From: a bacterium
Lineage (GTDB): Bacteria; Latescibacterota; Latescibacteria; Latescibacterales; Latescibacteraceae
Direction of reading: 5' to 3'
NCBI GenBank assembly: GCA_021372535.1
Contig: JAJFUH010000057.1
Span: 1-50,922 of the forward strand
DNA: 50,922 bases
Position numbers and translations under genes: made by a program. This document shows positions 2,771 through 28,425 of the stretch, one piece after another. The stretch's first letter is position 1. Each line of letters starts with the position of its first letter. The notes under the pieces were generated by a model. The model did no database searches and was not told the DNA's origin. It saw only the letters and a program-made list of their open reading frames with translations.

Positions 2771-5656
2771 ATGCAGAAGATAAAAATGTTTTTTGGGAAG
2801 CGAGTCGCCTTTCTATCGACAGTTCTTATGTTTACGCTGGGTATGGCCGCGGCTCAGAGCCCTGTCGTAAATATCACCAGCGGTATATCATACGGGACGC
2901 TTTCAGATGCTATAAATGCACTTAATGATGGCGAAACCCTCGAAATACGGTCGTCGGGAACATACCCCTGTCCGGGGCTCACCATTAAAAAGAATAATGT
3001 TACACTACGCGGTGCGAATGGAGTAACCGCCATTCTCAACGGTGATTTCAATTGGAACGGATGTTGCCTTAAAATCGAAGGCAACGGAGTAAACCTCAGT
3101 AATCTTGATATCATCAGGGCTCTCGATATTGTAAAAGCGGCCGGGGTAAACAATCTTGTTCTGAACAATCTGCGTATTAACAACGCCAATGGCAATGGAG
3201 TGCTTCTTGACGGGATTACCGGCATATCCATTTCCACTCTTGCGTTTTATCAGGTGAACGGTTCGGCTGTCAACATAAAGAATTCCGATTCGGTATCCAT
3301 CAGCGATGTCACTGCCGCGAATTATGGCACGATCAACAAATGCATTGAGATTACCGGAACCACTGATATAACCATCAACCGGGCATTTCTGGGAAGTTGG
3401 AACAGGAATATGGTTCTCAGCCAGTGCACCGGAGTGACGATAACCGGCCTCGATATGGTATACGGTAATTACGGATTGAGTCTCGATTCCTGTCCCGGAA
3501 CGGTAATGGACAGTATTGACAGCGAGAACATAATCTATACGAATATAGCCATCAACACCTCAAACAACTGCGTAATACGGAACGGTACGCTTCAGCCGCA
3601 AAGCAGAGAGGCTATAGCACTCAGCAATGCATCAGGAACGAATATTCTGGACATGCGGATGCTGTGCAGAGGAGGTGCAACCAGCGGCGTCACTGTAACC
3701 AATTCTCCCAGTACGGTTATCCGGAGATGCGAGATTAAAAACGGCGGGTATGACGGCGTCACCGTGACGGCTTCTGCAGGATGCACGATAGAAAATACCC
3801 TTCTCTGCTCTAATCGCAAGGGTATTCTGCTTACAAGCTCGAGCAACTCCACCCTTATAAAGAACAATACGGTCATCAACAACCTGGATTCCGGAATCAG
3901 TCTTGGTTCGGTCAACGGTGTAAACATTCGTAACAATATTGTCGTAAATAACGGGAAAACGTACTGGACGTGGGGCATCCGGTGTGAGTGGGGAACCGTC
4001 CAGAATCTCTCGCTTACTTACAACGATATCTGGAATAACCGCGAAAATTATTCGAACTGCATACCCGGTACCGGTTCTCTCTCGGTTGATCCCCTCCTTG
4101 TGGATGGGTGCGCCGATGCACATCTGCGATCCGGTTCCCCCTGTATCGATACCGGTGATCCCGACGACCCCGTAGGCGATGAACCATCTCCAAACGGCGG
4201 AAGGATCAATATCGGTGTATATGGAGGGACTGTGGATGCGACAACGACGGCGCAGGTTGAAGTCACCATCGCTGAAGCCGCCGCACGGGGCTGGGTGAAC
4301 CTGTATTGCTATCCCTGGCAGGATATCCAATATGTTCAAATCAGCGGCCTTCCCGGTGCAGCGAACACCATTCTGCCGCCATGGTGCGGTTTCTGGGTGA
4401 TTGTGAATCAGGATGTCGATATCGTGTTTCCCCACAATCCAACCGCGCAGATTCCCTCTCCGGGCAACGTCATGTCCAAAGAGCTGCTTAACAGTTGGTA
4501 TTATCTGATTTCCGTTCCGCTCAATCCGGTTAACAAAGATGTAAACGCGGTTTTCGGCGACGATCTCGGTGATGGACTTTATGACGGCTCCACCGGTCAG
4601 AAATGGCGCGTCTCGAAATGGAATGTGGACAGTGGAGATTATACCCGGTATACCGGCACCGGCAGTTTCCCCGAGCTCATTCCGGGGCGTGGCGTCTGGA
4701 TCCGTCAGATTTATGACGAAACCAGGACGATCACGGTTTCCGGCAATCCTGTTTCCAATACCAGTGATTACTCACTCAAATTGAAAAGCACCGGCGGGGA
4801 AACCTATCATATGATCGGCAACCCGTATCCGTACAACATCGACTGGCGTTCTGTAAAAGTACGCGTTCCTATGACAGACGCTCTTCAGGCGGGAAAGATT
4901 GCCGCTCCGGTTGATTTCAATGATATCCGGACATGGGATGTCGAATTGAAGCTCTCCACTACCAACGGCATTTTCGTAGATGCCAATAATAAGGCTGGCG
5001 TGATTCTTTCTGAGGATGATTACAGCTATATGCTGAATGCAGTGGACATGGAGCCGTTTGCGGATGATTATATTCGATTGTATCTGCTCGATCCGGATGA
5101 CCAGGACAGAAACAAGCGTTCTTACGACTACCGCGGCCCGTTTGAAAATTCCTGCGTTTGGAATGTCGTACTCTCGACTTCGATGGACGAGGCACAGGCC
5201 ATACTCGATCTCGGCAACCTGAGTTCCATTCCCGATTTGTACACGGCGACGCTGACAGCTCCTGACCTGACTGTGACGGCTTTGACCGGAGATGTCCATA
5301 TTCCTGTTACGCTGTCAAGTAATGCGGATGTCGTATACCGGCTCACCCTTACACGTGCCGAACCGCTGGCCGTTGAGGAGGAGAGTATTCCACGGGCATT
5401 CGGAATAGTCGGGGCAAGTCCGAATCCGTTCAATCCCGCCACGACTATCGAATATATCACCGATCATCCCGGTAATGTACAGCTTTCCGTCTATAATATT
5501 GCAGGACAGAAAATTGCTGTATTGGCTGAGGGAATCATGAATGCCGGGAAACACTCCGTAACATGGTATGCCGCAGGCCAGGGCTCCGGAGTCTATTTTG
5601 TGATTCTTGAGACATCGGAAAAGCGGGATGTCCGGAAAGTAATGCTGATGCGATAG
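2771..5656 (+). CDS. Secreted right-handed beta-helix protein with T9SS/FlgD-like C-terminal sorting domain
   Basis: A 961-aa exported protein. Residues 1-29 form a signal peptide (basic start, hydrophobic core, AAA-Q cut). Residues ~30-450 are a parallel beta-helix of the pectate-lyase/NosD type: many ~22-residue turns rich in Asn with alternating V/I, such as GVNNLVLNNLRINNANGNG and NSTLIKNNTVINN. A 'SVDPLLVDG...SPCIDTGDP' block closes the helix, as in DUF1565/choice-of-anchor proteins. Residues ~490-860 are a beta-rich region of unknown type. Residues 883-961 carry the SPNPFNPATTIEY motif, VYNIAGQ and GVYFVILE of Por-secretion (FlgD-Ig-like) sorting domains, so it probably reaches the cell surface. 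No catalytic residues can be named; polysaccharide binding or lysis is possible. A GAGG sequence lies ~7 bases before the ATG. Confidence 0.85.
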   Translation: MQKIKMFFGKRVAFLSTVLMFTLGMAAAQSPVVNITSGISYGTLSDAINALNDGETLEIRSSGTYPCPGLTIKKNNVTLRGANGVTAILNGDFNWNGCCLKIEGNGVNLSNLDIIRALDIVKAAGVNNLVLNNLRINNANGNGVLLDGITGISISTLAFYQVNGSAVNIKNSDSVSISDVTAANYGTINKCIEITGTTDITINRAFLGSWNRNMVLSQCTGVTITGLDMVYGNYGLSLDSCPGTVMDSIDSENIIYTNIAINTSNNCVIRNGTLQPQSREAIALSNASGTNILDMRMLCRGGATSGVTVTNSPSTVIRRCEIKNGGYDGVTVTASAGCTIENTLLCSNRKGILLTSSSNSTLIKNNTVINNLDSGISLGSVNGVNIRNNIVVNNGKTYWTWGIRCEWGTVQNLSLTYNDIWNNRENYSNCIPGTGSLSVDPLLVDGCADAHLRSGSPCIDTGDPDDPVGDEPSPNGGRINIGVYGGTVDATTTAQVEVTIAEAAARGWVNLYCYPWQDIQYVQISGLPGAANTILPPWCGFWVIVNQDVDIVFPHNPTAQIPSPGNVMSKELLNSWYYLISVPLNPVNKDVNAVFGDDLGDGLYDGSTGQKWRVSKWNVDSGDYTRYTGTGSFPELIPGRGVWIRQIYDETRTITVSGNPVSNTSDYSLKLKSTGGETYHMIGNPYPYNIDWRSVKVRVPMTDALQAGKIAAPVDFNDIRTWDVELKLSTTNGIFVDANNKAGVILSEDDYSYMLNAVDMEPFADDYIRLYLLDPDDQDRNKRSYDYRGPFENSCVWNVVLSTSMDEAQAILDLGNLSSIPDLYTATLTAPDLTVTALTGDVHIPVTLSSNADVVYRLTLTRAEPLAVEEESIPRAFGIVGASPNPFNPATTIEYITDHPGNVQLSVYNIAGQKIAVLAEGIMNAGKHSVTWYAAGQGSGVYFVILETSEKRDVRKVMLMR

Positions 5657-5737: not shown

Positions 5738-5914
5738 ATGGAATCAGGGAATCGGAAAACAGTCAACCGCAGGGAAATCATAAAAAAGGCGACGAAAACC
5801 GGAGTTTTCATTATCCCGACCATGATGACATTCGATGTACAGGATCTCCATGCAAAGGCTTCCGGTGAAAACAGTTTCCCAACTGAACCGCAGAAACCTG
5901 CAGCAAGCAAGTAA
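5738..5914 (+). CDS. 58-aa peptide, candidate precursor of the PqqD/HprK-like/NTP_transf_5 cassette
   Basis: A short open frame with a strong ribosome-binding site (AAGGAGA at 5727-5733, four bases before the ATG). The peptide is basic at the N-terminus with RREIIKKA (residues 11-18), has a hydrophobic centre with FIIPTMMTF (24-32), then DVQDLHAKASG and a Pro/Glu/Lys-rich tail. Small proteins with an RRxxLKKA...P-[VIT]-[IM]-[LM]-T pattern are, from general knowledge, often found next to PqqD-like and HPr-kinase-like genes, which is the arrangement here (PqqD gene begins ~220 bases downstream). I infer that it is the substrate peptide of the cassette. The RR and the A-x-A-like HAKA could also suggest a Tat-type leader, but the hydrophobic stretch is short and broken by proline. 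No Cys, so no lanthionine or sactipeptide chemistry. Confidence 0.65.
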   Translation: MESGNRKTVNRREIIKKATKTGVFIIPTMMTFDVQDLHAKASGENSFPTEPQKPAASK

Positions 5915-6130
5915 TTACGCCATTTTTGGCGGAGATTCGTTCGCTGCCTCTCCCTTCAACGGGAAATCAGATTTTTAAATCGATTTCCCGTTCATCGCCT
6001 CTAGCTCATTTATGCAGGGAAGCAGGTTTTCGTAGGATTTTCAGGTGCGGACCTTCTTTAAAACACAAGGAGACCCGATTCTGCATCCCCGGATTTATCT
6101 GGAATATCTTAAGTGGAGAAACTCACTGTC

Positions 6131-6385
6131 ATGCACACGATGACGCTTCATAAATCCGATGGAATCGAACGCATAGAGGTGGACGACGGCGTTGTTCTCA
6201 AGCATGAGGGACATATCCATGTTCTCAACCAGACCGCCGTACGGATTTTTGATCTGGTCGATGGTTCGCGGATGCATGAAACAATCGTCAGCATAATGAT
6301 CGAAGAGAACAACGGGACTGATGTTAGAGGGTACGTTATGGACTTCATTCAGGCTCTTATGAAGGCGAATCTCATCCACGAGTAG
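6131..6385 (+). CDS. PqqD-like peptide-binding protein (RiPP recognition element)
   Basis: An 84-aa protein with the PqqD-family pattern: a short beta-hairpin part (IERIEVDDGVVLKHEG), the conserved HVLNQTAVRIFDLVDGS segment (Asn-[QE]-T/A-A...hhph-h-D/E-G), then two helices. PqqD-like domains hold the leader of a ribosomally made peptide and present it to modifying enzymes. ATG at 6131 is chosen; a GTG at 6113 would add six residues, but the GGAG at 6115-6118 sits at a usable distance only for the ATG. It is followed by the HPr-kinase-like gene after 8 bp. The 198 bases between the peptide gene and this gene contain another AAGGAG (6067-6072) without a good start codon after it. Family confident; partner peptide inferred. 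Confidence 0.85.
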   Translation: MHTMTLHKSDGIERIEVDDGVVLKHEGHIHVLNQTAVRIFDLVDGSRMHETIVSIMIEENNGTDVRGYVMDFIQALMKANLIHE

Positions 6386-6393
6386 AAATCGTA

Positions 6394-7221
6394 ATGCGCA
6401 TATCACTCGCAATCGGCGATAAATCGTTGCTCTTAACGGGCAATGCCGACGATTATTTCGATACGCTCTCCAATTTATTTGCTGCCTGGCGTCAGGAACG
6501 GGACGAGAGGGACCGGAGCGACGCATATCATTTGACTATCACGAAAAAGGGCAATACCTATCAGATAGCCGTGCCCGACTCCAACCTCATCGAGGCGGAA
6601 GCCGGCTCACTGGTAAGCGTTATCGAGCAGATCATTACGTGTGCCGCGCGTGAAAGCATGCAGGACTACCTGCAGCTGCATGCAGCGACTCTTGACTCGA
6701 AAGGCGACGGCTTCACCATTGCCGGACCGCACGGTGCGGGGAAAACGACGCTTGCTTTGACAGCACTCTCATGCGGATGTACCGCTCTCAGCGATGAAAT
6801 AACCGTGATACGGAAGGCAAATCTCGCGCTGGGTTTTCCCCGGCCTTTTCGTGTACGGCCCGGTATACTGGAGTTGCATCCATCTGTTATCCCATCCTGC
6901 ATACCGTCCCTGCTGTCGACCGATAATATCACACACCTTCTCTTTTCGATTCCATCTTTGGGGTTCTACAGGCCCGAAACCCGCATTCGTCATATCTTTT
7001 TTCCGGTGAGAAGGTCCGGCGGTACCGAAGTGCAGCCTCTGACACAGCGTGAAACACTCGAACGACTTCTTCCGCAGGGTTTTAACATATATCAGCGGCC
7101 TGACGAGTTCATGCATGTTCTTATCGAACTCGTTCGTATGACCGAATCGCATGAAATCCGTTATCATGACCACTGGCATGCGATACAAACCATTCAGCAG
7201 ATGATTCACGGTTCGTCATGA
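6394..7221 (+). CDS. HPr-kinase-like P-loop protein of a peptide-modification cassette
   Basis: A 275-aa protein with the core of HPr kinase/phosphorylase relatives: LQLHAATL (93-100), a Walker A GPHGAGKTT (111-119), then ALSDE (131-135) as the second metal/nucleotide motif. It lacks the N-terminal domain of true HprK and no PTS genes are near, so it is not a carbon-catabolite HprK. Relatives of this class ('HprK-related kinase') occur in lasso-peptide and other PqqD-containing clusters, where some phosphorylate the precursor peptide. It starts 8 bp after the PqqD-like gene, and its stop overlaps the next start by 4 bp, so the three are translationally coupled. Role as peptide kinase is inference. 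Confidence 0.8.
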   Translation: MRISLAIGDKSLLLTGNADDYFDTLSNLFAAWRQERDERDRSDAYHLTITKKGNTYQIAVPDSNLIEAEAGSLVSVIEQIITCAARESMQDYLQLHAATLDSKGDGFTIAGPHGAGKTTLALTALSCGCTALSDEITVIRKANLALGFPRPFRVRPGILELHPSVIPSCIPSLLSTDNITHLLFSIPSLGFYRPETRIRHIFFPVRRSGGTEVQPLTQRETLERLLPQGFNIYQRPDEFMHVLIELVRMTESHEIRYHDHWHAIQTIQQMIHGSS

Positions 7222-8372
7222 TATCGTATGAATCGATTCTCGGTTATCTCCTTTCGGTAACGGGCGTACCGGGGAGCCTCCCGCCATCACGCGTATGGGA
7301 CACGATACCCGTTCTTGCTGAACGGCTGCGGATATCGTTCTTTCTTGCCGGACTGATTGGCGAATGCCCACATCCGGATATACCCGAAAAGGTAGTGAAA
7401 AAGTATCGGTGTGACCTGTCTGCCAACATCGCCCGAAACGCCGTGCTGTCCCTCCAGATCCGTTCGATCGCGCAACTTTTCAGTACGGCAGGCATTCCCT
7501 GCATGTTTTTCAAAGGAGGGGCCTGCCTGGTTCGCGGTCTTTACCCGAGCGGCTGGCGGTTCATGACGGATATTGATATCCTCGTGCATCGGAAAGACCG
7601 TGATCGATCGCTGCACCTGCTCGAAACGGCCGGATATTGTGAAAAATCCGATGGAGTCGAACAGGTACACCACCTGCCACCGCTTTCTCATCCCATTCAC
7701 CCCGGTGAAGTTGAATTGCACACTACCCCGTACCCTCTGGGAGAGGCAGACGAACGGTCCCTGAATGAACTCTGGTCTCATGCGGAGATCGTTCTTTTCA
7801 TGGAAACGCCGATTCTCGTACCCGGTCCGACCGATCATGTCTGGATCATGGTGCGCACCGATACCATCGAACGGGTCACCATTCCCCGGTTACCGGATAT
7901 CATCGAGTATTCGCTGATTCGCGATTGTAAACTCACCATCGATCATGACGTCCTCGTTCAAAGGGCCGAACATGACCGGATGCCCAATCTCATCAGAGCG
8001 TTCTTCTATGGAGTGGAATCGTTTGCAGATGGGAATGATACTCGCAGTCAACATGATTCCGAGCTGCTCCGTTGGGAGGAATCGAGCAGGATCATTCTTC
8101 GCAAAGAGCTGCGGTGCGATTGCTGGCATTCCTCACGACGGCGCTGGCTTGCAGTACGGTTTCTTCCGCCGGGAGGATTGAAATCAAGAACTGTGTTCGG
8201 TATCTGGCTTGCGAAGGAAATCGTTTCAACCGACCGATTTCGTCCCGGCACCTTTCGCGAGAAGCCGCTTTTTCTGAAAGCATTGATTTATATGAAGCTC
8301 GGGATTCTGTTTGTCGTTTCCGGGTTCGAATATCTTGTTTTTTATCGTATGACACACAAAAAACACGACTGA
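7218..8372 (+). CDS. NTP_transf_5-type nucleotidyltransferase family protein
   Basis: A 384-aa protein whose ATG overlaps the kinase stop (ATGA at 7218). The middle has the signature of uncharacterised nucleotidyltransferases (Pfam NTP_transf_5): GIPCMFFKGGACL then RFMTDIDILV, where the two Asp of DxD are the expected metal ligands of the polymerase-beta fold. It is preceded by a helical region and followed by a ~200-residue helical region, usual for the family. In lasso-peptide clusters such proteins sit next to HprK-like kinases; the biochemical role is unsettled, with nucleotidyl transfer to peptide or small molecule as an option. It is the last gene of the cassette. From 8373 to 8640 I see no supported gene. 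Confidence 0.75.
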   Translation: MISYESILGYLLSVTGVPGSLPPSRVWDTIPVLAERLRISFFLAGLIGECPHPDIPEKVVKKYRCDLSANIARNAVLSLQIRSIAQLFSTAGIPCMFFKGGACLVRGLYPSGWRFMTDIDILVHRKDRDRSLHLLETAGYCEKSDGVEQVHHLPPLSHPIHPGEVELHTTPYPLGEADERSLNELWSHAEIVLFMETPILVPGPTDHVWIMVRTDTIERVTIPRLPDIIEYSLIRDCKLTIDHDVLVQRAEHDRMPNLIRAFFYGVESFADGNDTRSQHDSELLRWEESSRIILRKELRCDCWHSSRRRWLAVRFLPPGGLKSRTVFGIWLAKEIVSTDRFRPGTFREKPLFLKALIYMKLGILFVVSGFEYLVFYRMTHKKHD

Positions 8373-24057: not shown

Positions 24058-24287
24058 TTTCGTGGCGGGTTCAAACGGAAGATAGGGAAATACAGAGGAA
24101 TATATCTTTAGAGGAAAAATCACGGAACGGTTTGGCAGAAGGTTTGTTTAAAGAATACTTCTCCACAATGCTTTTAATTATTATGGTTAATCGTAACAAT
24201 ATGGATTATATTATTACGCTTGGGAAACTGTGAGGAGTGCATTACAAATATATCCGATCAGTATTGTGTTCTGTAATAAAGGTCCAT

Positions 24288-25052
24288 ATGAAAATAGATA
24301 TCAGACTCTATTTTGAGATTCTTAGGCAGCCTGATGATATAACCTGCGGTCCGACCTGTCTTCATGCGGTTTACCGGTATTTTGGCTATGATATTCCTCT
24401 CGAGCAGGTTATCTCGGAAGTGAAGTATCTTGAAGAGGGTGGAACGCTCGCTGTTTACTTAGGACTTCATGCGCTCGAGCATGGCTTTCGGGCAACGCTC
24501 TATACCTATAATCTTCAGGTTTTTGACCCGACATGGTTTTTGACCCGTAATATCGATTTGCGGGAGAAGCTGGCTGAACAGATACACCATAAAAAAGGCG
24601 TCAAATTTCAGCAGGCATCACGGGCATATCTTGATTTTCTCAAACATGGAGGAAAGATACGTTTCGAGGATCTGACTGCGCGCCTGCTGAGAAAACACCT
24701 GAAGAAAGAAAAACCGGTTCTGACAGGCCTGAGCGCTACCTATTTATACAACTGTTCCAGAGAACGATCCCTGAAAAAAAACCGTATCGTGTATGATGAT
24801 ATTCGCGGTGAACCGATGGGTCATTTTGTCGTATTGACCGGTTATGAACAGGAAGCCCGGAGCGTCTGGATCGCAGACCCTCAGAAGCCCAATCCCTTAT
24901 CGGATTCGGCGGAATATTCCATACAGGTCAACCGGCTGATCTGCGCCATCATGCTCGGAATCCTCACCTATGATGCAAACCTTTTAATCATTGAACCCGA
25001 TCACACTGTAAAGGGAAATGCCAAACTTAGTCGTCGTATTCAACCCCAATAA
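24288..25052 (+). CDS. C39-like cysteine peptidase-fold protein, first gene of amidoligase cluster
   Basis: A 254-aa protein; ATG at 24288 is chosen because AAAGG precedes it (a GTG at 24237 would add 17 residues without likeness). It has QPDDITCGPTCLHAVYRYFG with the presumed catalytic C20, MGHFVVLTGYE with H179 and WIADPQ with D197, the arrangement of peptidase C39/papain-like domains. There is no signal peptide, membrane segment or ABC domain, so it is a soluble cytoplasmic enzyme and not a bacteriocin exporter. It overlaps the ATP-grasp gene by 35 bp. It may cleave or trans-acylate the product of the ligases; that is inference. Confidence 0.75.
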   Translation: MKIDIRLYFEILRQPDDITCGPTCLHAVYRYFGYDIPLEQVISEVKYLEEGGTLAVYLGLHALEHGFRATLYTYNLQVFDPTWFLTRNIDLREKLAEQIHHKKGVKFQQASRAYLDFLKHGGKIRFEDLTARLLRKHLKKEKPVLTGLSATYLYNCSRERSLKKNRIVYDDIRGEPMGHFVVLTGYEQEARSVWIADPQKPNPLSDSAEYSIQVNRLICAIMLGILTYDANLLIIEPDHTVKGNAKLSRRIQPQ

Positions 25053-26487
25053 CTGGCCGCTCACCATTCCGAATGCGGAAGTGATTTCCTCGAAGGCCTA
25101 CCTGACGGATCCGCTGTACAGCCAGCTCAAAGGGGTAAAAGTCTTCAATCTCAGCAGGTCATACCGGTATCAGAGTCTCGGATATTACGTGTCACTGCTC
25201 GCTGCCGCCCGTGGTCACCACCCCGTTCCCAATGTTGTGACGATTCAGGATATGAAATCGCAGTCAATTATCCGTTTTGTCTCCGATGAACTGGATGAGC
25301 TGATTCAGAAAAGTCTGAAAGGGATTTTGAGTGAAAAATTCACCCTGAGTATCTATTTCGGACATAACATTGCGAAAAAATACGACCGTCTGAGCTATCA
25401 TCTCTACAATCTGTTCCCGTCCCCGCTGCTCAGGGCATTTTTTGTGCATAACCATAAGTGGCAGCTTCAGAACATTGTTCCCATTCCCGCCAGCGAAATT
25501 CCCGGAGAACACATGGAGTTTGTCCATGCAATGGCGATCGAGTATTTCTCGGGCAAAAAGATCAGTGTTCCCAGGAAGGTACAGACACGGTATGACCTGG
25601 CGATTCTCCATGACCCTGAGGAAAAAGAACCTCCCTCCGATGCGCGGGCTCTCCAGAAATTTATCAGGGCGGCTGAAAACCTCGGCATCGATGCGGAATT
25701 GATCACTCCCGAGGATGCGGGACGTCTCCTCGAGTATGACGCCATGTTCATCAGGGAAACGACGAATGTCAACCATCATACGTACCGGCTTTCACGTAAG
25801 GCTGAAGCCGAAGGACTGGTGGTTATCGACGATCCGCTCTCCATCCTCCGCTGTACCAACAAGGTCTTTCTTGCCGAGCGTCTCCAGCGCCAGAAAATCC
25901 CGATACCAAGGACACTGTTTATCCATAAGGACAACAAGGATACGGTCTGTGACGACATGGGGCTGCCCTGTATTCTCAAACAGCCGGACAGCGCGTTTTC
26001 ACAGGGTGTCATGAAGATCGAAAGCCGTGAGGAGTTCCGCATTCAGGTGGAGAAGCTCCTGGACAAGTCGGACCTTGTCATTGCACAGGAATATATTCCC
26101 ACATCTTTTGACTGGCGTGTCGGCATCCTCGACCGTCAGCCGCTCTATGTCTGTAAATACTATATGGCCAGGAAACACTGGCAGATAATACGGCGTGACG
26201 GCGAGGGAAAGATATTCGAGGGCAGGGCAGAGACATTTGCAGTCGAGGATGCGCCCGAGCGCGTCGTTCAGACGGCTTTGAAGGCTGCGAATCTTATCGG
26301 GGACGGCCTCTATGGCGTCGATGCGAAAGAAATCAACGGAATACCGTATATCATCGAGATCAACGACAACCCGAATATCGACAGCGGTATCGAGGATGCC
26401 GTTTTGAAGGATGTACTGTATACACGGGTCATGGAATCGTTCCTGCGGAGAATCGAAAAGTCCAAGGGAAGGACGGATTCCACGTGA
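25018..26487 (+). CDS. RLAN-domain plus RimK-like ATP-grasp ligase
   Basis: A 489-aa protein. Residues ~1-190 match the RimK-like ATP-grasp N-terminal (RLAN) domain (NRSYRYQSLGYYVSLLAAARGHHPVP-like pattern, here SRSYRYQSLGYYVSLLA). Residues ~200-480 are an ATP-grasp domain: TNKVFLAERLQRQKIPIPRT, the nucleotide-binding LPCILKQPDSAFSQGV, AQEYIPTSFDWRVGILD, and the metal-binding IIEINDNPN. Such enzymes join a carboxylate to an amine through an acyl-phosphate, often adding amino acids to a peptide or small molecule. AAGGGAA precedes the ATG. It is overlapped by the C39-like gene before and by the GCS2 gene after (4 bp), so the genes are tightly coupled. Substrates unknown. Confidence 0.85.
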   Translation: MPNLVVVFNPNNWPLTIPNAEVISSKAYLTDPLYSQLKGVKVFNLSRSYRYQSLGYYVSLLAAARGHHPVPNVVTIQDMKSQSIIRFVSDELDELIQKSLKGILSEKFTLSIYFGHNIAKKYDRLSYHLYNLFPSPLLRAFFVHNHKWQLQNIVPIPASEIPGEHMEFVHAMAIEYFSGKKISVPRKVQTRYDLAILHDPEEKEPPSDARALQKFIRAAENLGIDAELITPEDAGRLLEYDAMFIRETTNVNHHTYRLSRKAEAEGLVVIDDPLSILRCTNKVFLAERLQRQKIPIPRTLFIHKDNKDTVCDDMGLPCILKQPDSAFSQGVMKIESREEFRIQVEKLLDKSDLVIAQEYIPTSFDWRVGILDRQPLYVCKYYMARKHWQIIRRDGEGKIFEGRAETFAVEDAPERVVQTALKAANLIGDGLYGVDAKEINGIPYIIEINDNPNIDSGIEDAVLKDVLYTRVMESFLRRIEKSKGRTDST

Positions 26488-27722
26488 AAGTGCGCGCCCT
26501 GCACCTGTTTGAAGGTTATGGCATCGAGCTTGAGTATATGATCGTAGACCGCGATACGCTCGATGTACTCCCCGTCACCGACAGGGTGATTCACGCCGTC
26601 TCGGGAACCTATGATTCGGAAATTGACATGGGCCCGCTCAATTGGTCAAACGAGCTCGTTCTCCATGTCATCGAATTGAAAACAAACGGCCCCGCATCGT
26701 CGCTCGAAACGCTTCCCGGTATTTTTCAATCCCACATTAAGAAAATTAACGGAATCCTCGATCCATTCGGCGGGCGGCTCATGCCGACCGGAATGCACCC
26801 CTGGATGAACCCGTCCGCTGAAACACGGTTGTGGCCCCATGATTACAACCCCGTTTATGAAGCATACAACCGTATCTTTGGCTGTCAGGGGCATGGCTGG
26901 TCCAATCTCCAGAGCCTTCATATCAACCTTCCCTTTGCCGGCGACGCTGAATTCGGCAGGCTGCATGCCGCCATACGGCTGGTTCTGCCCATTCTGCCTG
27001 CCCTGGCAGCAAGCTCGCCCATCGTTGGAGGGGTATTAACCGGTATTCCGGACTCACGGCTCGAGTATTACCGTAACAACCAGAACAGGATTCCATCGAT
27101 TGTCGGCCGGGTCGTTCCGGAGCCTGTCTATACGAAGCGGGATTACCGGGAGCGGTTGTTGAAAAACCTGTACCGTGACATCGAGCCCTGTGATCCGGAT
27201 GGGATTCTCCGTCATGAATGGCTGAATTCACGGGGTGCGATCGCCCGCTTTGAACGTAACGCCATAGAAATCCGTGTGCTCGATATCCAGGAGTGTCCTC
27301 TGGCCGATCTCGCCATAACTGCGGCGGCGGGTGCGCTCATTAAAGCCCTCGTCGACGAACGGTGGACAGATATCCGTACCCAGCAGGATTTCCCTACGGA
27401 ATACCTTGCCGATTTGTTCGTACGGGTCATAAAGGATGCGGAAGGAACGCTGATTTCCGACTCGGACTATTTACGGATGTTCGGATTGGATTCCCTTCCG
27501 GAATGCACTGTCGGGGAACTATGGCGGTATCTGTATGAGTCAGTTTTACAGCGTGACCTCAACGGTGTCTGGCATCATCCTTTCGAAACACTGCTCGATC
27601 ACGGGCCGCTGTCGAGGCGTATCATCGGAGCGCTATGTGGTGATTTTTCCCGCGAAAATCTGGCATTGTGCTACCGGAAGCTTATGAACTGTCTGGAGGA
27701 GGGCGCCCTGTTCCTTGGGTAA
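26484..27722 (+). CDS. GCS2-type carboxylate-amine ligase (glutamate-cysteine ligase-like)
   Basis: A 412-aa protein with a GTG start inside the preceding stop region (4-bp overlap). The N-terminal FEGYGIELEYMIVD, the ELVLHVIELKTNGP segment, and MHPWMNPSAETRLWPHD are the acidic metal/ATP positions of GCS2 relatives with the glutamine-synthetase-like fold; further NLQSLHINLPF and AIEIRVLDIQECPLADL follow. It would form a gamma- or alpha-amide bond between an amino acid and a second amine. It is unlikely to serve glutathione synthesis, as the partners are a RLAN ATP-grasp, a C39-like peptidase and a formylglutamate-amidohydrolase-like enzyme. Confidence 0.8.
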   Translation: MKVRALHLFEGYGIELEYMIVDRDTLDVLPVTDRVIHAVSGTYDSEIDMGPLNWSNELVLHVIELKTNGPASSLETLPGIFQSHIKKINGILDPFGGRLMPTGMHPWMNPSAETRLWPHDYNPVYEAYNRIFGCQGHGWSNLQSLHINLPFAGDAEFGRLHAAIRLVLPILPALAASSPIVGGVLTGIPDSRLEYYRNNQNRIPSIVGRVVPEPVYTKRDYRERLLKNLYRDIEPCDPDGILRHEWLNSRGAIARFERNAIEIRVLDIQECPLADLAITAAAGALIKALVDERWTDIRTQQDFPTEYLADLFVRVIKDAEGTLISDSDYLRMFGLDSLPECTVGELWRYLYESVLQRDLNGVWHHPFETLLDHGPLSRRIIGALCGDFSRENLALCYRKLMNCLEEGALFLG

Positions 27723-28425
27723 ACCGAGCCTGATAATCACCTGTGAGCACGGGGGAAACGAGATTCCCCCGGAGTACCATGGGCTGTTCGGTGAGTACGG
27801 GAATCTCATCGAAAGTCATCGTGGATTTGACGCAGGCGCCCTGGAGCTTGCCCGCGAGTTTTCAGATAAATTCCATGTCCCCCTTTTTGCCGCAACGGTG
27901 AGCAGACTCCTGGTTGATCTCAACCGGTCTCTTCATCATCGGGCGCTTTTTTCACCCGCCACACGAGGCCTTACATCATCAGAGAAAATGACGCTTATCG
28001 AACGGTATTATCATCCATACCGGGATAAAGTCCAGTCATGGATCGGTGAGCGGATCGAGGCGGGAGACCCTGTGTTGCACCTTTCCATACATACCTTTAC
28101 CCCTGTTCTCGATGGGATTGTCCGTCATGGCGATATCGGGCTGCTTTATGATCCCTCACGGGTGCTCGAAAAAGAGTTGTGTCTTCGATGGCAGGCGCGG
28201 TTGAAACAGAGCCTGCCGGGATTCCGGATACGCCGGAATTACCCATATCGCGGACGGTCGGACGGTTTCGTGTCGTTTTTACGGGCGCGGTACGGCGAGG
28301 ATTCTTACCGGGGGCTGGAACTTGAAATCAATCAGGAATATATAACCGGAGCTCCTGAAAAATGGGGTCTTGTCAAGAAAGCGCTCATCGAAAGCTTCCG
28401 GTGCGCCGCCGGTCTCTCGGATTGA
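27715..28425 (+). CDS. N-formylglutamate amidohydrolase-like protein
   Basis: A 236-aa protein with a TTG start at 27715, GGAGGAGGG about 10 bases before it and an 8-bp overlap with the GCS2 gene. The family pattern is visible: LIITCEHGGNEIPPEY, SHRGFDAGALELAREFS, VSRLLVDLNRS, LHLSIHTFTP and GLELEINQEY, which in the zinc-dependent family provide His and Glu metal ligands. No histidine-utilisation genes are near, so histidine catabolism is unlikely. Within this cluster it may remove an amide-linked group from the ligase product. Last gene of the coupled set; the next gene starts 227 bases later. Confidence 0.82.
   Translation: MGKPSLIITCEHGGNEIPPEYHGLFGEYGNLIESHRGFDAGALELAREFSDKFHVPLFAATVSRLLVDLNRSLHHRALFSPATRGLTSSEKMTLIERYYHPYRDKVQSWIGERIEAGDPVLHLSIHTFTPVLDGIVRHGDIGLLYDPSRVLEKELCLRWQARLKQSLPGFRIRRNYPYRGRSDGFVSFLRARYGEDSYRGLELEINQEYITGAPEKWGLVKKALIESFRCAAGLSD

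Follow-up and report, generated by a model that had tools for sequence, protein, structure and literature searches.

A candidate Tat-like, RRE-guided precursor peptide in a PqqD/HprK-like/NTP_transf_5 cassette of Latescibacterota

The stretch of DNA considered here (the window; 50,922 nucleotides) is contig C57 of a 5.35-Mb source genome (G000) held in 236 contigs. Recomputation of its open reading frames (ORFs) bore out the arrangement described in the initial annotation, in which four plus-strand genes at 5738-8372 encode, in order, a short peptide, a PqqD-fold protein, an HprK-related kinase and a nucleotidyltransferase of the NTP_transf_5 family (NTP5), with a gap of 8 bp between the PqqD and HprK genes and an overlap of 4 bp between the HprK and NTP5 genes (Table 1). 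The peptide gene is uncoupled from this series, being separated from the PqqD gene by 198 bp, part of which is occupied by a strong hairpin; this is compatible with precursor and enzyme levels that could differ. The hairpin has no U-tract behind it and is not scored as an intrinsic terminator; moreover, promoter and terminator scans gave scores no better than those of shuffled sequence, and Rfam returned no match. The GTG start assigned to the PqqD gene at 6113 is uncertain, with an in-frame ATG at 6131. Elsewhere in the window, a tightly packed set of plus-strand genes at 24237-28425, encoding a C39-like peptidase, an RLAN/RimK ATP-grasp protein, a GCS2 ligase and an N-formylglutamate amidohydrolase, forms a separate amidoligase cassette.

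Table 1. Positions of the cassette genes, the features of the candidate precursor and the upstream secreted protein gene in the window
Feature	Position	Strand	Evidence and remarks
Secreted beta-helix protein with Por_Secre_tail/FlgD-like C-terminus	2771-5656	+	PF13229, E=6e-20; TIGR04183, E=1.2e-8
58-aa precursor peptide ORF (candidate)	5738-5914	+	ATG with AAGGAG ahead, a good Shine-Dalgarno sequence; Tat-like n-region, embedded putative RRE-binding motif, AxA, short Pro-rich tail
Twin-arginine-like motif RREIIKK, residues 11-17	5768-5788	+	RR/KR kept in 5/5 peptides
Candidate RRE-binding motif FIIPTM, residues 24-29	5807-5824	+	Fits [Y/W/F]xxPx[hydrophobic]; equivalent in 5/5 peptides
Candidate signal-peptidase site AKA, then Ser42 as candidate phospho-acceptor	5852-5863	+	AxA in 5/5 peptides
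mRNA hairpin between precursor and enzyme genes	5958-5992	+	z = -3.55
PqqD-fold RRE, 90 aa	6113-6385	+	PF05402, E=3.8e-7, above cut-off
HprK-related kinase, 275 aa	6394-7221	+	TIGR04352 HprK_rel_A, E=8e-15; P-loop GPHGAGKTT, conserved acidic SDE
NTP_transf_5 nucleotidyltransferase, 384 aa	7218-8372	+	PF14907, E=5.6e-28; KG...RFMTDIDILV, both acidic residues intact

Residues G111, G116, K117, T118 and D134 of the kinase are invariant, and its family profile has HPr kinases (3tqf and 1ko7) among the nearest PDB entries; likewise, K99, G100, D118 and D120 of NTP5 are invariant, with KG and DxD retained. AlphaFold models of the two enzymes were of low confidence (HprK from a single sequence, pLDDT 37.5; NTP5 from two sequences, pLDDT 40.7). 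The HPr-rel-A system, which is composed of a TIGR04352 kinase and a TIGR04353 PqqD protein, shares the same broad kinase family and a PqqD partner with the cassette; however, the window kinase reaches 54.6 bits against TIGR04352, far under the equivalog cut-off of 200, and the window PqqD has no match to TIGR04353, for which two related PqqD proteins discussed below (C47 and G029) score 26.6 and 34.7 against a cut-off of 35. This assignment was downgraded because the curated cut-offs were missed.

The 58-aa peptide has no family match in Pfam or NCBIfam, and its relatives were sought by genome searches covering 64 Latescibacterota genomes, among them a genus-mate of the source (G001), a member of another genus in the same family (G003) and a member of another family (G029). 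The peptide, PqqD, HprK and NTP5 recur jointly in G003 (in the order secreted protein, 53-aa peptide, NTP5, PqqD, HprK), in a second cassette of the source genome on contig C47 (PqqD, HprK, peptide, glycosyltransferase, NTP5) and in G029 (peptide-PqqD-HprK, with NTP5 further along), so that the initial annotation's proposal to look for peptide homologues beside other such cassettes returned them at all three loci. Because the window and G003 peptides are 51% identical across genera while the adjoining proteins are less alike (HprK 33%, NTP5 30%, PqqD 35%), the cassette is more than a chance assembly. A chance ORF, or an ordinary Tat-secreted micro-protein in a coincidental neighbourhood, would likewise be short, family-less and set apart from the PqqD gene, but this explanation is scarcely credible, as it is largely refuted by the syntenic G003 homologue and is further opposed by the homologues in two more cassettes and by the good Shine-Dalgarno sequence. 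Judged from these comparisons, the 58-aa peptide is a genuine, cassette-linked gene.

When the 3,937 ORFs of the cassette loci are ranked by a profile built from the window and G003 peptides, the C47 peptide (6e-4) and then the G029 peptide (0.93) come directly after those two; over whole genomes, the C47 peptide appears at E=0.044 and the G029 peptide is not listed, and the homology of these two thus rests on similarity plus position. A four-peptide profile recovers its own four builders at E of 2e-21 or better, which is circular, and adds a lone fifth candidate in genome G028 (E = 0.001). The latter (L093:1468-1779, plus strand) is a Tat-like peptide, SRRDFLRK...YVAPVIQTI...AHA, and no HprK or NTP_transf_5 relative was found in that genome. 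The cassette peptides number four in total, all within one phylum, and of the five cassettes whose HprK is of this type, four have one; a PqqD-HprK-NTP5 cassette in G047 (L074:3-6329) has a ~500-aa membrane-like protein and no recognisable precursor peptide, and many PqqD-NTP5 loci of the phylum are without such a peptide. In the NTP5 tree, the window, C47, G003 and G001 copies form one clade (support 100/100). The window HprK used directly to scan the genome collection gave no match, the NTP5 alignment scan of the collection matched only a G001 contig, and neither NTP5 nor the G003 peptide had a tblastn match among plasmids. A third NTP_transf_5 locus of the source genome, on contig C179 (L045:10234-14815), encodes an HD-domain protein, PqqD, a radical SAM protein, an HprK-like protein and NTP5, and relatives of it in G011 and G008 hold PqqD, radical SAM, HprK-like and NTP5 genes in another order; no Tat-like peptide was seen there.

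All five peptides carry [RK]R followed, after a gap of 11 or 14, by [FY]xxPx[MIV]x[ST] (shuffle p 0.0025-0.018 each), and the combined motif occurs in none of nine ordinary Tat-like proteins of the fetched loci, a small control. The second element corresponds to the motif bound by the RREs of lasso peptides and of Linear Polyphosphorylated Peptides (LPPs), [Y/W]xxPx[L/V/I/F/A] (PMC13381572), and the peptide accordingly reads as a Tat-like signal that appears to overlap a lasso/LPP-type RRE-binding motif. The AxA site, which lies behind this motif in all five, is a softer feature, being expected by chance at 19-48% in three of the five peptides. Ser42 of the window peptide aligns with the sole Ser after the RR motif in the G003 peptide, and its distance from Phe24 equals that from Tyr-16 to Ser3 in the LPP precursor LppA, in which Ser3 sits 18 residues past the motif Tyr (PMC13381572). 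An LPP-spaced Ser is found in only two of the five peptides, and the LppA-like spacing was therefore dropped as a defining feature; because the C47, G029 and G028 peptides lose the exact distance, Ser42 is a lead only as a phosphorylation site. At offset +8 of the [FY]xxP motif, an invariant Ser/Thr (T, T, S, S, T) is present in all five peptides, corresponding to Thr31 in the window (5828-5830); this residue could be a recognition or a modification site.

The PqqD protein points in the same direction, since the profile of its family finds as its nearest PDB entries TbiB1 (1.5e-12), TfuB1 (3.4e-11), LppB (9x8z; 7e-9) and PbaB1 (9x90; 4e-8), and the solved lasso RREs, LppB and PbaB1 all outrank PqqD itself. 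In LppB, Asn33 locks the kink formed at the proline of the motif and Asp70 bonds the Tyr hydroxyl (PMC13381572). The equivalent of Asn33 is invariant in seven of seven aligned Latescibacterota proteins; by comparison, among the four peptide-bearing cassettes the Asp70 position holds Asp only in G029, whose peptide is the sole one with Tyr, and is Tyr in the window, Val in G003 and a gap in C47, whose peptides have Phe. The same position is Gln in PbaB1, whose leader carries Trp. The F/Y residue of the peptide would thus seem to track the Asp70 equivalent of the RRE, a covariation that is suggestive only, as the sample comprises four pairs and two of these are close relatives. Kinase clusters of this kind go unmentioned in the main text of RRE-Finder and of a later RRE survey based on structures.

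A cyclase-free combination of an RRE, an HprK-like kinase and an NTP transferase has been described for the LPPs of Bacillota (Popov et al. 2026; PMC13381572). The cassette shares with them a discrete RRE of the lasso/LPP-type fold, both enzymes, the lack of a macrolactam cyclase and a short precursor with [aromatic]xxPx[hydrophobic] in a conserved N-terminus and a variable C-terminus, together with a candidate Ser at equal spacing in two peptides. On the other hand, LPP clusters include an SpI-like leader peptidase, which the window cassette lacks, and an MsbA-like exporter, which is not found among the neighbouring window ORFs; of the LPP leader consensus YxxPxVLxHQxIxFETxxS, the window peptide shares only the aromatic-xxP-x-hydrophobic element and the Ser spacing, and it has Phe for Tyr, a Tat-like RR motif and an AxA site, in Latescibacterota as opposed to Bacillota. 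With three defining features present and three absent (peptidase, exporter and leader consensus), the locus is best regarded as working like an LPP without being one. The initial annotation had suggested a peptide modified by phosphorylation or nucleotidylation only; this survives in so far as peptide homologues were found and lasso genes at the locus were not, and phosphorylation alone is plausible because the enzyme set matches that of LPPs, but the same precedent means that the arrangement is not unprecedented.

If the window enzymes behave like their known counterparts, they would first phosphorylate the peptide and afterwards add a group to the phosphate. The LPP kinase LppK places up to four phosphates on one Ser, acting only on Ser3 of LppA and not on Thr, and LppN shows no detectable activity in a heterologous host (PMC13381572); the nucleotidyltransferase of pseudomycoidin, a lasso peptide, puts one or two hexoses onto the phosphate (review PMC8498205). 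The chemistry of the window NTP5 is accordingly a guess.

HprK, NTP_transf_5 and an RRE are also the tailoring genes of paeninodin-like clusters (PMC8498205), which raises the alternative that the product is a phosphorylated lasso peptide, with the genes for its cyclase and B2 protease lying at other places in the genome; three full-length Asn_synthase matches, on contigs C38, C219 and C43, could be taken in its favour, and a fragment lies on C36. Paeninodin and pseudomycoidin have in common with the cassette an HprK-like kinase, a nucleotidyltransferase and a PqqD-like B1, but their clusters have a B2 protease, a C cyclase and an ABC transporter, none of which is present here, and the paeninodin kinase phosphorylates a C-terminal Ser, whereas the C-terminal residue here is Lys or Trp. 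A genome-wide search for the B2 protease (PF13471, Transglut_core3) gave nothing above cut-off, the best score being 22.8 against 26 bits for a 545-aa open frame, in a genome of which ~4% may be missing; no Asn_synthase lies near the cassette, and the contigs bearing it differ from those of all three NTP5 loci. For these reasons the lasso assignment was downgraded and is very improbable, and the absence of a lasso protease and cyclase here, first noted in the initial annotation, holds.

No exporter or protease gene lies near the cassette, and Peptidase_S26 has no match within the window. The initial annotation had read this as an absence of export neighbours, an idea that is probably wrong because the peptide resembles a Tat-type signal bearing AxA, and because the source genome has TatC (C37 has a further, partial match) and signal peptidases (three Peptidase_S26 matches, with copies on C197 and C175). 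The Tat call is motif-based, drawing on the twin-arginine-like motif, a moderate hydrophobic core and AxA; against TIGR01409, the G003 peptide scores 12.9 bits with a cut-off of 16.7, and the window peptide matched nothing. Alternatively, the peptide could be a small membrane-anchored or periplasmic regulator or adaptor with an uncleaved Tat-like anchor, for which phosphorylation by HprK would be a switch that NTP5 resets or transfers. The very short mature tail and the missing dedicated exporter and protease would suit such a role, as would the resemblance of the G003 peptide to TIGR02811, 'formate dehydrogenase region TAT target' (E=7.6e-4, under cut-off); however, an RRE-type PqqD partner with a YxxP-like motif follows RiPP logic, and a conserved leader with a variable tail is the RiPP pattern, which leaves the regulator unlikely.

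The beta-helix gene upstream of the peptide may widen the unit. The C-terminal 435 aa of its product are 37% identical to the gene product upstream of the G003 peptide (E=5e-76), and region 538-870 has strong matches only at these two loci in the source genome and G003, with none in G001 and G002, two genomes in which the peptide profile gives nothing convincing and the HprK profile has no match. Judging from this synteny, the secreted protein gene probably belongs to the cassette unit, and a role for its product as a partner or carrier of the peptide is plausible. The same synteny, together with the glycosyltransferase of C47, could instead mean that the enzymes modify a polysaccharide or surface protein, the substrate being the beta-helix protein or a glycan and the peptide a docking factor or unrelated. 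Family f8, in which PqqD-NTP5 pairs without a peptide adjoin polysaccharide-export genes, lends this some weight, but the peptide is more conserved than the enzymes and recurs with this HprK type, and PqqD is a peptide-binding fold; a glycan or surface-protein substrate is therefore rather improbable. The f8 loci themselves (L072:7290-10823 and equivalents) comprise a ~180-aa ORF followed by PqqD, NTP_transf_5, an SLBB polysaccharide-export protein and a PALP enzyme, and their HprK-like genes sit elsewhere, between ~1190-aa and ~590-aa ORFs; upstream of these EPS-type PqqD genes no peptide was found, and most have the conserved ~180-aa ORF.

Taken together, the cassette is somewhat better than evenly likely to make an LPP-like linear phospho-RiPP whose export would use Tat (or Sec) and whose cleavage would fall to a housekeeping signal peptidase. 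From what is known of the two families, the PqqD-fold RRE would bind the precursor via FIIPTM, and the HprK-like kinase would phosphorylate a serine just behind the leader. The remaining steps are more conjectural: Ser42 would be the most likely acceptor, NTP_transf_5 might attach a nucleotide- or sugar-linked group to the phosphate, and the leader may double as a Tat-like signal whose hydrophobic core is covered by the bound RRE until modification is complete. Export by Tat (or Sec) would then be followed by a signal peptidase cut after AKA that releases a tail of ~17 aa, for which the upstream secreted protein would probably be the extracellular partner. The locus would need no peptidase or pump gene of its own because general export and signal peptidase would serve.

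A stricter version, which is possible but doubtful, holds that the leader is a Tat signal whose hydrophobic core hides the RRE-binding motif and that PqqD serves as an enzyme adaptor and, at the same time, as a chaperone for Tat proofreading, such that only the phosphorylated precursor would be exported, with signal peptidase replacing the dedicated protease and pump. A Tat-like leader held by PqqD would parallel the redox-enzyme maturation proteins, which bind the hydrophobic core of the Tat signal during cofactor insertion (PMC3316669, PMC3712460). In both cases a small protein would sit on that core during cargo maturation; the maturation proteins differ in fold and cargo, and their likeness to PqqD is an analogy only. 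In the literature searched, mostly without subscription papers, no account of RRE-guided peptides whose leaders are Tat-like turned up.

If the proposed pathway is correct, phosphate-only linear RiPPs would reach from Bacillota into an uncultured Gram-negative phylum, in a minimal version without a protease or pump of its own that couples RRE recognition to export through Tat and signal peptidase. A directly testable specificity pair would be provided by the peptide's F/Y residue and the Asp70 equivalent of the RRE, and the peptide supplies a candidate precursor for HprK/PqqD/NTP_transf_5 cassettes of unknown substrate.
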